Positions 354 through 23,897 of a stretch of 64,000 nucleotides of DNA are shown here, piece after piece. The stretch is from Catenuloplanes atrovinosus (GTDB lineage Bacteria > Actinomycetota > Actinomycetes > Mycobacteriales > Micromonosporaceae). The stretch spans positions 8,643,001-8,707,000 of the forward strand of contig NZ_JAVDYB010000001.1 in the NCBI RefSeq assembly GCF_031458235.1, in the 5' to 3' direction. The translations under genes were made by a program, and so were the position numbers. Each line of letters opens with the position of its first letter. Within the stretch, counting starts at the first letter, position 1. The notes below the pieces were generated by a model that did no database searches, was not told the origin of the DNA, and was given only the letters and a program-made list of their open reading frames with translations.

Positions 354-1544
354 ATGACCATTACCGACACGAGGCGACGGGGCGCGCCCCCGCTCCCGGC
401 CGAACGCCGGCGCGGCAGGCTGGGCGGCCTCTCCGTGGCGCAGCTGGTCTGCGTCGAGGTGGCCGTGGTGGCCGTGCTCGCGTCGCTCGGCGGCCCGGTG
501 TGGGCGCTGCCCGTGGCCGGCGTGCTCGCCGTGGTGCTGCTGGTGCTGGCGTTCGCCCGGCGCAAGAGCCGCTGGTGGTTCGAGCACCGCGTGGTCAGCC
601 GCCGGTTCCGGGAGCGGGCCCGGGCCGCCGCCGCGTCGCCGGACCGGGAGCTGGCCGCACTCGCGCCGCACCTGAGCGTGACGGAGATCCGGGAGCGCGG
701 CACGCCGATCGGCGTGGGGCGCGACGACATGGGCTGGTTCGTGGCGCTGGCCGTGGACGCGGGCGGCGACACCGCCGCCGACGCCGGGCTCGGTGCGGAC
801 CGGATCGGCCGGATTCTCGCCGAGTCCGCGCTGCCGGTCTCCGCGCTGCAGGTGGTCACCCATCTCGTACCGGCGCCGACCTCGTTCCTCGACCACGCGG
901 CGCCGGCCGTCCGGTCGTACCGGGAGCTCCTCGGCGGCCTCACCATCCCCGCGGACTCGCGCGTCTGGGTCGCCGCCCGGCTGCGCCCCGCGGACGCGCT
1001 CGCCGCCAGCGCCAGCCGCGGCGGCGGGCCCGAGGGCGTGCACCGCGCGCTCGCCGCGCTGCTCGGCCGGATCGGCAAGACGCTGGACAGCGCCGGCTTC
1101 GTCTCGCAGCCGCTCACCGCGACCGAGCTGACCGCGGCCGTCGCCACCGTGGCCGGCCTCACCGGCGCGGCCGTCACCGGCGACGCCGTCCCCGCCCCGC
1201 AGGCCCCCCGGGAGAACTGGGCGGGCTGGCAGGGCACCGAGGCGATCCACGTCGGCTTCCTCGCCACCCGGCTCTCCCCGTCCGGCCTGTCCGTCGCCGC
1301 CCGCCGCCTCCCCGAGGTCGGCGCGCTCTCCGCCACCGTCGCCGTGGTGCTCAACCGCCGGCCGGACGGCGACCTGCGCATGCAGGCGATCGTGGACGTC
1401 GCGGCGCGCGCGACCACGGCCGCGGAGACGTTCGCCGCGGTCACCGGCATCTTCGACCAGTGCGGCATGCAGCTTCGCCGCCTCGACGGACAGCACGCCG
1501 CGGCGATCTACGCGACCGCGCCCACCGGAGGAGCGATCGGATGA
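354..1544 (+). CDS. eccE: Type VII secretion protein EccE
   Basis: EccE is a peripheral membrane subunit of the ESX core complex. The 396-residue product has a basic leader, two adjoining hydrophobic segments at about residues 24-62, then the family-typical turn RRKSRWWFEHR followed by a soluble domain. The length fits actinobacterial EccE. It is the first gene of a rightward pair and overlaps the next gene by an ATGA junction, implying translational coupling. EccE is the least conserved core subunit, so context (eccB, eccD, eccC, esx, mycP nearby) carries part of the call. Confidence 0.85.
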   Translation: MTITDTRRRGAPPLPAERRRGRLGGLSVAQLVCVEVAVVAVLASLGGPVWALPVAGVLAVVLLVLAFARRKSRWWFEHRVVSRRFRERARAAAASPDRELAALAPHLSVTEIRERGTPIGVGRDDMGWFVALAVDAGGDTAADAGLGADRIGRILAESALPVSALQVVTHLVPAPTSFLDHAAPAVRSYRELLGGLTIPADSRVWVAARLRPADALAASASRGGGPEGVHRALAALLGRIGKTLDSAGFVSQPLTATELTAAVATVAGLTGAAVTGDAVPAPQAPRENWAGWQGTEAIHVGFLATRLSPSGLSVAARRLPEVGALSATVAVVLNRRPDGDLRMQAIVDVAARATTAAETFAAVTGIFDQCGMQLRRLDGQHAAAIYATAPTGGAIG

Positions 1545-2254: not shown

Positions 2255-2287
2255 TCCCGCTTCCGGCGGGTCGGCTCCCGCATGCTC
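2255..2287 (+). repeat. Left half of dispersed repeat, interrupted by IS110
   Basis: This segment continues, across the inserted IS110 element, into 3787-3828. Joined at the shared CTC it reconstitutes the uninterrupted inverted copy at 23825-23897 (this half differs by two substitutions and one indel). It contains the hairpin CCCGC-TTCCG-GCGGG. Both copies lie between convergent genes, like a REP or terminator-type element. Confidence 0.8.
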
Positions 2288-2349
2288 ATTGGTCAACATG
2301 GGTGGTGCCCGGGTCTGTATGGGTCGGGTAGCACCGGGTGTTCGTTGGG

Positions 2350-2490
2350 TCATTGCCTCTGCTTGCGAGATTTTTGAGGTCCTGCGGGAGTTCTGCGAGG
2401 CCTGACGGGCGCCCGGGGTGCCACCTTGACCGACGACAGAGCTATGCACCTTGTCGAGTGCCGGTCAATGAGCTTTCGGTGGTGGTGGTC
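2350..2490 (+). ncRNA. Candidate IS110 bridge RNA in the left end
   Basis: IS110 elements of this layout encode a bridge RNA with a target loop followed by a donor loop. Segment 2381-2390 (CCTGCGGGAG) can pair with the top strand of the right target flank CTCCCGCGGG (3787-3796), with nine Watson-Crick pairs and one G-U. It sits in a loop closed by GCCTC (2355-2359) and GAGGC (2397-2401). Segment 2463-2472 (GGTCAATGAG) can pair with the element's own left end CTCATTGGTC (2285-2294) at all ten positions, two of them wobble. Segment 2436-2444 matches 3778-3786 at 8 of 9 positions, as a left-donor guide should. Order and polarity fit the published IS621 RNA. The boundaries are estimates. Confidence 0.6.
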
Positions 2491-2540
2491 CCCGGGAGCC
2501 GCCTGGTGTTTCCCCTGCTGCTGCAACAGCGAGGAATCCT

Positions 2541-3776
2541 GTGGTGAGTGTGGCAAAGACGGTGGTGTCGGGTCGAGTGCGGTGGGCGGGAGTCGACTGG
2601 GCGAAAGATGATCATGTGGTGTGTGTGGTCGACGAGGCCGGGCGGGTGGTGGAGCGGGTCACGGTGACGCACAAGGCGGCGGGGCTGGCCCGGATGGTCG
2701 GGGTGCTGGACCGGCATGAGGTGGACGCGGTCGGGATCGAGCGGGGTGACGGGCCGGTCGTCGATGCGCTGCTCGATGCGGGTCTTCCGGTGTTCGTGAT
2801 TGCTCCGGGGCAGGTGAAGGCGTTGCGGGGCCGGTATGGGTCGGCGGGGAACAAGGATGACCGGTTCGATGCGTTCGTGCTGGCCGATGTGGTGCGCACG
2901 GACCGGGCTCGGCTCACGCCCCTGTGCACCGATCGGGATGACACGGTGGTGTTGCGGCGGTTGTCGAGGGCGCGTAAGGACGTGATCGGGCATAGGGTCG
3001 CGGCGGCGAACCAGCTACGGGCGCATCTGGACACCGCCATGCCCGGGACGGTCGGGTTGTTCGCGGACCTGGACTCGCCGATCAGTCTGGCGTTCCTGGC
3101 CGTGTTCACCAGCCAGGACGCCCTGGACCGGTTGACCGAGGCCCGGCTGGCCCGGTGGCTGGCCCGGCAGCGGTATTCCGGGCGGACGTCAGCGGCGGTG
3201 TTGCTGGCGCGGATCCGGTCCGCGCCCCGCGGGCCGCAGGGCCCGGCCGGGGCCGGGCTGGCAGGGATCACCGTCGCGCTCGTGGCGATCCTGCAGAGCC
3301 TCGTCGCGCAGATCAAAGCCCTCAGCACGCAGATCGGTGAGGCATTCGACGCCCACCCCGACGCGCCGATCTTCGCCGGCCTGCCGAAAGCCGGCACGAT
3401 CCGCGCGGCCCGGCTTCTGGCCGAGATCGGTGACGCCCGCGGCCGGTTCCCCACCCCGAACGCGATGGCCTGCCTGGCCGGCGCCGCTCCCTCGACCCGC
3501 CAGTCCGGCCGATCGAAGGTGGTCACGTTCCGCTGGAGCGCGGACAAACACCTTCGTGACGCGGTCTGCGACTTCGCCGCCGATAGCCGCCACGCCAACC
3601 CATGGGCGGCGAACCTCTACCACCGCGCCCGCGAACGCGGCCACACACACCAGCACGCCGTCCGGATCCTCGCCCGCGCCTGGCTGACAGTGATCTGGAA
3701 ATGCTGGACCACGAACACCCCCTACGAACAGGACAAACACGGCCAACTCCAACTCATACTCGACCAGAGACGTTGA
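2541..3776 (+). CDS. IS110-family transposase (bridge-RNA-guided recombinase)
   Basis: The 411-residue protein catalyses insertion of its element. The N-terminal RuvC-like DEDD domain shows Asp in AGVDWAKDDH, Glu in VGIERGDG and the Asp pair in NKDDRFDAFVLADVV. The C-terminal Tnp domain contains the IFAGLPKAGTIRAARLLAEIGD helix-hairpin-like segment and the GAAPSTRQSGRSK stretch that includes the family's conserved Ser. The start is GTG 2541 with AGGA just upstream; GTG 2544 and 2550 are alternatives. The frame is intact and all catalytic positions are present, so the element may be active. Codon use is slightly less GC-biased at the 5' end than in neighbouring genes. Confidence 0.95.
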   Translation: MVSVAKTVVSGRVRWAGVDWAKDDHVVCVVDEAGRVVERVTVTHKAAGLARMVGVLDRHEVDAVGIERGDGPVVDALLDAGLPVFVIAPGQVKALRGRYGSAGNKDDRFDAFVLADVVRTDRARLTPLCTDRDDTVVLRRLSRARKDVIGHRVAAANQLRAHLDTAMPGTVGLFADLDSPISLAFLAVFTSQDALDRLTEARLARWLARQRYSGRTSAAVLLARIRSAPRGPQGPAGAGLAGITVALVAILQSLVAQIKALSTQIGEAFDAHPDAPIFAGLPKAGTIRAARLLAEIGDARGRFPTPNAMACLAGAAPSTRQSGRSKVVTFRWSADKHLRDAVCDFAADSRHANPWAANLYHRARERGHTHQHAVRILARAWLTVIWKCWTTNTPYEQDKHGQLQLILDQRR

Positions 3777-3786
3777 CACAGAGCAA

Positions 3787-3828
3787 CTCCCGCGGGCACC
3801 GGTCGTCGCTGGCGCTCCTCCCTGCCGG
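3787..3828 (+). repeat. Right half of dispersed repeat, interrupted by IS110
   Basis: These 42 bases are identical, in inverted orientation, to 23825-23866. Together with 2255-2287 they make the repeat that received the IS110 insertion. Similarity stops at 3828. Confidence 0.85.
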
Positions 3829-4192: not shown

Positions 4193-4262
4193 GACCTGGT
4201 GGGTCCTGTGGACCTGGTGGGTCCTGTGGACCTGGTGGGTCCTGCGGACCGGTGGGTCCGCC
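4193..4262. repeat. 18 bp tandem direct repeat, three units plus a variant
   Basis: The unit GACCTGGTGGGTCCTGTG occurs at 4193-4210 and 4211-4228, then with one change at 4229-4246, then as a degenerate fourth unit. Each unit contains GGTCC/GGACC so neighbouring units can fold on each other. There are no spacers, so it is not a CRISPR array. Confidence 0.8.
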
Positions 4263-4520: not shown

Positions 4521-5912
4521 CTAGGCGCTGATCGTGGTGATCCAGTTGTAGAGGCCGCAGACCCAGGCCGCGAGCGGGACCACGGCCAGGATCAGGACGA
4601 TCTCCCAGATGTCCAGCAGCCGCCCCCAGATCGGCGCGATCCGCTTGCCCGCCACGGACAGGCCGTAGATCAGCGACACCGCGGCCACGATGATCAGGCC
4701 GCCCAGGACCAGGCCCAGCCGTGCCGCCCAGCCGCCCCAGCCGAAGACGGCGAACGCGGTCAGGATCAGTCCCGCACCGCCCGCGAGCAGTGACGGAAGG
4801 CGCTCGCGGCGGGACGGGTACGGCCGGGCGCGCAGCAGCAGGAGCAGCGCGAGGACCAGGCAGAGCAGCGTGGCGCTGAGCCGGCCGTCGAACGCGAGCG
4901 TGATCTCCGCGCCGAGCGCGATGGCGGAGACGGTCCAGATGAGCGCGGTCAGGTACTCGTCGGCCCGCTCGCTGAGCTGGAGGACGTGGCGCCCGTCGAC
5001 GGACTCGTCGTCGGCCTTGAGGTCCTCCGGGCCGGTCGGGATGGACGGCACCGGTACGCGGGCCAGCCGGTACGACATCATCGGCAGCACCGGGTGGAAC
5101 GCGAACACCACGGCCGCGACGATGGCGGCGGCCGGCGCGGCGGAGAGCCCGAAGACGAGGCAGATGCCGGCGCCGAGCGCGAGCGCCACGCCGGCCGCGG
5201 CGGAGCCGAGGAACAGCGGTGTCGCATAGCCGACCGCGAGCGTGGCGACCACGCCCAGCATGAGCAGCACGGCCGCGCCGATCAGCACGTGCGGCGCGCC
5301 GAGCTGCCCGATCGTGGCGTCGCCGGCCAGCAGCAGCGTGCCGCCGACGGTGCCGTAGACCAGCGCGACGCCGGCCACCATGGCGCCGCTGCGCCCGTCG
5401 CCGGCCGCGCGGGACAGCATGGTCGCGGTGAGCATGAGCAGCGCGGCGGCGGCCAGCGCGGCGACGCCACCGGGCAGCTGCGGCGGGCCGGAGAACAGCA
5501 CGCCGATCGCGCCGGCGAGCAGCGCGGCGGCCGCGAAGCCGACCGAGAAACGCCTGGTCATCGCCGTGTCCCAGCGGCCCTCGCGGGTCTGGGTGGCGGT
5601 GGCGACCGCGTCGACGATGTCGTCGAAGACCACCTCGGGACGGGCCGCGGCGCGGGGCGTGAAGTAGAGCAGCTCGCCGTCGCGGATCTCCAGCTCGACC
5701 GCGGTGCGCGAGCTGTCCAGCGGCTTCCCGCCGAGCCGGGCCAGCGCCCAGCCGCCCTGCGCGGCACCCTGGTCGGCGACCTCCTCGCCGGCGTGCCGGA
5801 GCACGGTCGGCAGCAGGTCAGCCAGCGGTACGTCGGACGGCAGCGCGAGGTCGAGCCTCGTCCTGGGCGCGACGATGGTGACCCTGCTGCTCCCGCTCAC
5901 TGTGGCGGCCAT
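4521..5912 (-). CDS. eccD: Type VII secretion integral membrane protein EccD
   Basis: EccD forms the membrane-spanning ring of the ESX translocon. The 463-residue product has an N-terminal ubiquitin/YukD-like domain (about residues 8-90: SRVTIVAPRTRLDLALP, ending GELLYFTPR) and then about eleven hydrophobic helices from residue 120 to the C-terminus. The length is normal for the family. The start at 5912 is preferred over a longer frame from 5939 because GGGGAGG lies 8 bases before it. It is divergent from eccC across 138 bases, which must contain both promoters. It is convergent with the eccE pair, and the IS110 insertion lies in that convergent gap. Confidence 0.92.
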   Translation of the reverse strand: MAATVSGSSRVTIVAPRTRLDLALPSDVPLADLLPTVLRHAGEEVADQGAAQGGWALARLGGKPLDSSRTAVELEIRDGELLYFTPRAAARPEVVFDDIVDAVATATQTREGRWDTAMTRRFSVGFAAAALLAGAIGVLFSGPPQLPGGVAALAAAALLMLTATMLSRAAGDGRSGAMVAGVALVYGTVGGTLLLAGDATIGQLGAPHVLIGAAVLLMLGVVATLAVGYATPLFLGSAAAGVALALGAGICLVFGLSAAPAAAIVAAVVFAFHPVLPMMSYRLARVPVPSIPTGPEDLKADDESVDGRHVLQLSERADEYLTALIWTVSAIALGAEITLAFDGRLSATLLCLVLALLLLLRARPYPSRRERLPSLLAGGAGLILTAFAVFGWGGWAARLGLVLGGLIIVAAVSLIYGLSVAGKRIAPIWGRLLDIWEIVLILAVVPLAAWVCGLYNWITTISA

Positions 5913-6050
5913 GGTTGCCTCCCCGTGGATCCAAGCCACTCACGATTCGTGAGGAGAGTACCTACGATGGCGAACGCTAGGATGCCCACCCGACGCCGGG
6001 CTCGGTGAGGGCGGCGTCCGACGGGGGAAGATCGGGGAGGCGAGACGCGG

Positions 6051-23824: not shown

Positions 23825-23897
23825 CCGGCAGGGAGGAGCGCCAGCGACGACCGGTGCCCGCGGGAGCATGCGGGAGGTGACCCCGCCGGAAGCGGGA
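23825..23897 (-). repeat. Uninterrupted copy of the dispersed repeat (IS110 empty site)
   Basis: This 73-base copy is inverted relative to the copy at 2255-2287 / 3787-3828. The 42 bases of the right half are identical, and the left half differs by two substitutions and one indel. It lies between convergent genes and can fold into GC hairpins (CCCGC/GCGGG). It shows the target before IS110 insertion: ATG-CTC-CCGCGGG. Confidence 0.88.

Follow-up and report, generated by a model that had tools for sequence, protein, structure and literature searches.

The left end of an IS110-group insertion sequence in Catenuloplanes atrovinosus very probably encodes a bridge RNA that would direct exchange at a CT core, with a specificity set mostly by seven nucleotides of its right target guide (RTG). 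The element lies in a window of 64,000 nucleotides (contig NZ_JAVDYB010000001.1), whose positions are used throughout, and its features are collected in Table 1. The RNA structure, the complementarity of the guides to target and to donor, the covariation of the RTG with its sites and the insertion sites themselves were read from DNA sequences. Structure, guide matches and guide-site covariation all argue for the bridge-RNA interpretation that a previous sequence-only reading of the window had put forward.

In the proposed mechanism, the excised circular element would join its right end to its left end, probably creating a promoter, and the RNA would be transcribed from the left end. In its first loop, the left target guide (LTG) and the RTG would pair with the bottom and top strands of the target, respectively, and in the second loop the left donor guide (LDG) would pair with the right end of the element and the right donor guide (RDG) with its left end. 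Strand exchange at the CT core would be carried out by the DEDD recombinase, in a ribonucleoprotein with this RNA. For this clade, specificity would come mostly from a 7-nt RTG, which in the window makes a 10-nt match, and the LTG would be tolerant. Transcription, ribonucleoprotein, circle, promoter and strand exchange are proposed here by homology to IS621.

Table 1. Features of the element, its predicted RNA and the empty target site (window positions).
Feature	Position	Strand	Basis
IS110-group insertion sequence	2285..3788	+	Left CT core 2285-2286 to right CT core 3787-3788; five copies, empty site
Predicted bridge RNA, target- and donor-binding stem-loops	2330..2505	+	Covariance model R1; ends provisional
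Target-loop stem, 5' arm	2342..2356	+	Pairs with 2395-2408; placed by R1
Left target guide (LTG), corrected register	2358..2367	+	8/10 with CCCGCATGCT; aligned to relatives
Hairpin between LTG and RTG	2369..2381	+	Helix 2; last base is first base of the 10-nt RTG
Right target guide (RTG)	2381..2390	+	10/10 with CTCCCGCGGG, one G-U; in the family, signal in last 7 nt
Target-loop handshake guide (UU)	2391..2392	+	Complementary to donor AA left of core
Target-loop stem, 3' arm	2395..2408	+	R1, helix covariation
Donor-loop stem, 5' arms	2415..2432 (2415-2418, 2422-2425, 2430-2432)	+	R1, helix covariation
Left donor guide (LDG)	2436..2444	+	8/9 with element right end ACAGAGCAA; same GAG variant
Donor-loop terminal hairpin	2446..2461	+	GCAC/GUGC; most relatives GCGC/GCGC; helix 5
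Right donor guide (RDG)	2463..2472	+	10/10 with element left end CTCATTGGTC, two wobbles
Donor-loop stem, 3' arms	2477..2493	+	R1, helix covariation
DEDD recombinase, 411 aa	2541..3776	+	Pfam PF01548 1.1e-33, PF02371 4.7e-16; IS621 transposase 8wt6
Right end: TTGACA box and left donor sequence	3773..3786	+	Box 3773-3778 over stop codon; sequence
Empty target site GCATGCTCCCGCGGGCACC	23853..23871	-	Inside unoccupied repeat copy

The element and its target repeat

The genome, a single 8.9-Mb contig, carries five copies of the element, all identical and all inserted at the same position of a repeat and in the same orientation, indicating site-specific insertion in a fixed orientation. On re-reading, both the left-end sequence (2285-2540) and the unoccupied site near 23825-23897 agreed with their earlier description. 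The junction is exact to within CTC only, the third base being common to both sides and ambiguous in position. The element has a long left end (256 nt) and a short right end (10 nt from stop codon to right core). IS621 of E. coli likewise belongs to the IS110 group and has its RNA in a long left end (PMC11208160, PMC11208158). The long RNA-bearing right end and the subterminal inverted repeats of 7-17 bp that define the IS1111 group were not found, with those 10 nt at the right and the RNA at the left. Of 232 inverted repeats, the 25 longest include none that links the two termini; a 6-bp match near the element ends (GTCAAC/GTTGAC), found by eye, is the longest end-to-end match seen.

The recombinase, whose start codon is the one listed mechanically, matches both the DEDD_Tnp_IS110 and the Transposase_20 families of Pfam above cut-off, as expected of a DEDD/serine recombinase. 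Its sole match among solved structures, with E values up to 10 allowed, was the IS621 transposase (8wt6), to which it is only distantly similar (whole-sequence E 1.2e-7). Taken singly, the two stretches of that match score poorly (i-E 0.029 and 0.055); judged by eye, the alignment brings together the DEDD residues as well as the serine, whose roles are taken from PMC11208158. No close relatives of the element were found in 354 genomes of the family, where the nearest recombinase is 67% identical. Convergent genes of type VII secretion flank the element, with EccE (354-1544, forward strand) upstream and EccD (4521-5939, reverse strand) downstream, and an 18-bp unit is repeated in tandem (3.8 copies, 4193-4259) in the intergenic DNA to the right of the element.

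The target is part of a GC-rich dispersed repeat of about 80 bp, of which an unoccupied copy lies at 23825-23897 on the reverse strand. We found 209 further sites in the genome with at most 2 mismatches to the 19-base target, and none for the reversed control. In each of five genomes of the genus, this one included, 176 to 268 such sites were counted, compared with 0 or 1 for the reversed control. Over the family, the target with at most 1 mismatch is present in 11 of 354 genomes, namely 5 of the same genus, 5 of the 6 of a second genus and one of a third, the last with 4 copies. Of 40 repeat copies listed, 20 were inspected; by a rough heuristic, 16 of them have no long open frame across them, and many of the 20 lie just 3' of a gene end.

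Guides and predicted structure of the left-end RNA

Three of the guides proposed by the sequence-only reading, the RTG against the right target (RT), the RDG against the element's own left end and the LDG against its right end, kept both their positions and their numbers of pairs on recounting (Table 1). The left target guide, which had been sought in a TGCT near 2361, turned out to be misplaced. In relatives the LTG stops one nucleotide short of the small hairpin, so that homology assigns it to 2358-2367 in the window; the former register, ending at 2363, is four bases off that of the relatives and was dropped. The corrected LTG includes two wobbles in its pairing with the left target (LT), and its mismatches fall at target -3 and at the core T. 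These two mismatches, one of them in the core, count against the proposed explanation; in IS621, core pairing is strongly preferred (PMC11208160).

We compared the guide matches with those in 5000 dinucleotide shuffles of 2295-2540, accepting a match anywhere and in any order. Matches as good as that of the window were obtained with RT in 250 shuffles and with the right donor (RD) in 281. An 8-of-9 match to the left donor (LD) was found in 4679 with wobble and in 20 without, and an 8-of-10 match to LT in 4926; the LT match alone carries no weight in the window. RT, RD and LD matches occurred together in 7 of the 5000. As single matches are not rare in shuffles, only the combination of guides is significant within the window. 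The earlier proviso that shuffled left ends should rarely match as well held for the three guides together; the RTG and the RDG taken singly are weak. The evidence from the window alone is modest and would not settle the bridge-RNA reading. The site might be picked by protein-DNA recognition of the conserved repeat, the guide matches being due to chance in GC-rich DNA, and the recurrence of single RTG and RDG matches in 5-6% of shuffles fits that idea. It is made extremely improbable by the covariation of guides with flanks and of helices across relatives, and by a guide base and a target base that change together between near-identical elements (see below).

The bridge-RNA reading was examined further with a covariance model, R1, built on 44 of 52 non-redundant relatives with the window excluded, eight long ones (186-213 nt) having been removed by hand. 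R1 found 2330-2505 at 86.7 bits (E 1.1e-13), and its next match inside the window scored 12.6 bits (E 0.81). Over the whole genome, where 150 of the 22459 candidates from a first look were scored, it reported the five copies alone. The layout is that of a stem, LTG, hairpin and RTG, followed by a second stem, LDG, hairpin and RDG. The same order of target loop and donor loop, with a left and a right guide flanking a small hairpin in either loop, is described for IS621 (PMC11208158).

Over all helices, 95.7% of cells are paired and 149 two-sided changes were counted; shuffles gave 38.3, and none of 500 reached the observed count. The counts were made on the alignment that yielded the structure, in which one helix was set by hand. 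The target-loop stem (helix 1) is paired in 97.4% of cells, with two-sided changes at 11 of its 14 pairs, and the donor-loop terminal hairpin in 97.7%. Helix 2 is paired in 90.9% of cells in the relatives; in the window its pairs, by eye, are G-C, A-U, U-G, U-G and U-A. Sliding the helix partners by one base reduced pairing to about 40%, a control that favours the structure derived from that same alignment. A conserved two-loop structure, on which the earlier reading had staked its case, is present with compensatory changes in the 44 relatives, and the window was found by a model lacking it. Folding of the single sequence was better than that of shuffles by a moderate margin only (z -2.43 and -2.36) and did not clearly give the donor loop, and the comparative structure was therefore adopted. 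Rfam 15 gave no match in the window at gathering score. The best sub-threshold hit of a permissive Rfam search, to a microRNA family (E 1.2), was set aside as chance.

It could be argued that the matches represent DNA homology used in recombination rather than guides in an RNA, given that the RNA is predicted here from sequence. However, the segments occupy the loops of two stem-loops that covary, with one segment in each strand sense. This matches the RNA of IS621, which has been shown experimentally (PMC11208160, PMC11208158), and compensatory helix changes would not be kept by DNA homology alone. We consider such homology highly improbable as the source of the matches.

Covariation of guides and insertion sites in relatives

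The bridge-RNA reading predicts guides that change with their sites, and we looked at 79 left ends, the window included, of which 18 had no recognised end and 61 were kept. Permutations were done on the 56 distinct RTG-RT pairs of those 61, none dropped for poor fit. For an enlarged set, relatives L122-L147 and L030 were added, giving 81 after omissions, of which 73 are distinct sites with full flanks. Left out of this set were L030, at the locus already represented by L048; L033, a repeat of the L031 element; L127 and L140, which have no right end; L130 and L131, in which the search pattern misplaced the core; and L091. In L061, L079 and L091 the right end is unusually far from the gene (spans of 1663-1689, median 1517); L091, a misfit (4/10), is the only one of the three left out, and counts were repeated with it. 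L151 was also left out, and the flanks of L148 are those of L145. To locate the ends of relatives we searched for CTCA(C/T)TG at the left and, at the right, for a TTGACA-like pattern with CTC, CTG or CTT after it. Because these patterns fix them, the core, the first donor bases, TTGACA and most of the LD motif owe part of their conservation to the search itself.

RTG-RT pairing gave a z of 11.1 with wobble and 13.2 for Watson-Crick pairs, and LTG-LT pairing 5.1 and 5.4, none of 10000 permutations being as high in either case (n = 56). In a scan of 5792 cells of left end by target over the 73 sites, the four highest cells were consecutive RTG-RT pairs, 2386/+4 (72/73, 28.5 expected), 2387/+3, 2385/+5 and 2384/+6. 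The z values are not probabilities, as many lower-ranked cells look like clade structure, and permutations leave shared ancestry in place. By position, the RTG pairs at 67-73 of the 73 sites from +0 to +6, of which +0 and +1 are fixed by how the ends were located, and falls to expectation from +7 (15 versus 12.0). The 7-nt prediction from the RTG equals the flank at 61 of 73 sites, with 16 distinct guides, compared with 13.9 on permutation (0 of 10000 as high). It does so at 61 of 74 with L091 restored and at 59 of 71 without L061 and L079. The other 12 of the 73 sites differ from the prediction by 1-3 bases. Over +3 to +6, which are free of search-pattern bias, the last 4 nt are equal in 62 of 73.

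A change of a single guide base is seen between two near-identical elements, L124 (genome G192) and L137 (G211). Over 1501 bp they differ at 25 positions, 2 of them in the first 250 nt and one of these within the RTG. As their guides predict, the G192 element adjoins CTCATGC at all four distinct sites (five copies, two with the same flanks) and the G211 element CTCACGC at all three. On this sequence comparison, the pair is a natural reprogramming by one guide base and one target base. In another observation, L040, whose flanks are those of L126, and L109, from different Actinoplanes-like records, have a common target on both sides (CTGACCGTCGCT and CTCCCGCCGAG), which suggests a second conserved target site or repeat.

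The left target half is read far more loosely. The excess of LTG pairing is restricted to about -1 to -5. Counted from a conserved GCC, the LTG gave a z of 5.7, which fell to 0.0 one base off and rose to a second peak (4.9) at two bases, this register being one base off for the window and L040-like elements. The second peak fits a Nocardioides-like class, for most of which (L088, L089, L093, L096-L099, L104 and L105) the LTG window of the alignment register is two bases off, lowering the LTG score of the permutation test. In that class, which also includes L092 and of which many are Nocardioides, the LTG appears to be displaced by two bases with respect to the core, and the right end has one base fewer ahead of the core.

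The RNA might read the right target half alone, the left half being recognised by the protein or not at all and the LTG being vestigial. The looseness of LT pairing, the quite different left flanks of near-identical elements and the core mismatch in the window agree with this. So does the frequency of CTCCCGCGGG, the 10-nt RT, which occurs 330 times in the genome, including five right ends, against 209 repeat sites, so that a 10-nt RTG alone would nearly suffice. On the other side, the 7-nt RT preceded by G occurs 1492 times, yet all five insertions are in the repeat, and more than a 7-nt RTG must therefore be needed. Both the LTG-LT covariation, in the alignment register and in the GCC register, and long LTG matches (10/10 in L058 and L072, 8-9 nt by eye in L139, L141, L146 and L147) speak for a functioning left guide. 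We regard a vestigial LTG as unlikely, and keep a bridge RNA with a tolerant LTG as our explanation.

At the donor side, the LDG and the right-end motif (7 bases) are equal in 69 of 73 sites, with a C/T class common to both, and the window's own GAG variant is present in both. The RDG follows the left end, TCAATGAG going with CTCATTG in 15 of 16 and AGTGAG with CTCACTG in 56 of 57, through few ancestral changes. The RDG-RD permutation test is weak, 278 of 10000 being as high for 10 nt of Watson-Crick pairs and 7395 of 10000 for 8 nt with wobble. The target-loop handshake is paired at donor -1 in 72 of 73 and at donor -2 in 44 of 73 (0 of 5000 permutations as high for each). The donor-loop handshake makes 1 of 2 pairs in the window and does not clearly covary in relatives (60 of 73 paired, 337 of 5000 as high; base -2, 4047 of 5000). 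At 71 of 73 sites the final 14 nt of the element's right end contain TTGACA, largely by construction of the search pattern; the box fits the promoter that forms at the right-left junction of the IS621 circle (PMC11208160). The covariation that had been proposed as a check is therefore very strong for the RTG and moderate for the LTG; the LDG and RDG share variants with their own ends, and the donor varies little.

Relation to described bridge RNAs

Besides its layout, the window element resembles IS621 in its CT core, the handshake bases after the RTG and the promoter-like box of its right end, and its use of a dispersed repeat recalls IS621 and REP elements (PMC11208160, PMC11208158). The guides differ in extent: IS621 has 9 LTG and 4 RTG positions, and in this clade the LTG is tolerant and the RTG effectively spans 7 nt, or 10 in the window. 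RDG pairing is an ungapped 10 nt in the window and interrupted in IS621. The IS621 authors noted longer RTGs in some relatives (PMC11208160), and the window clade is therefore a quantitative variant and not a new kind. The seekRNAs of ISEc21 and ISMch6 (PMC11187229) are similar left non-coding RNAs matching both target strands, and natural reprogramming has been reported between relatives. They belong to another host group and have another target, and their analysis, as described there, concerns target matches, whereas donor guides and handshake bases are included here. ISKrh6 of Kocuria (PMC12500396), likewise an IS110-family element of an actinobacterium, occupies three positions and has a region assumed to encode a seekRNA; it was compared by its description, in which no guide analysis was seen.

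Titles and beginnings of abstracts of the literature on IS110 bridge RNAs and seekRNAs hold no treatment of the window element. Within that literature and Rfam 15, the statement that this RNA appears undescribed stands; ISfinder, published RNA lists and the supplements of the 2024 papers were outside this scope, and the element may be catalogued in ISfinder or in published lists of predicted RNAs.

With this analysis, bridge-RNA logic reaches an actinobacterial clade in which many insertion sites can be read, and nature provides two almost identical elements whose guide and target have each changed by one base, in concert. The IS621 authors engineered longer RTG pairing to obtain higher efficiency (PMC11208160); in the window clade it appears to be natural. 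The repeat shows that host repeats are usable as insertion sites by such an element. Taking these points as one joint reading, we lean slightly towards a clade that is naturally dominated by the right guide, with near-complete fidelity over the core and 5 further nt of the RTG and a tolerant LTG, the reverse of IS621. In the same reading, the 10-nt RT match of the window element would be tuned to a genus-wide repeat that supplies some 200 landing pads in each genome, most of them judged intergenic by a rough heuristic, over which the element may spread with little harm.
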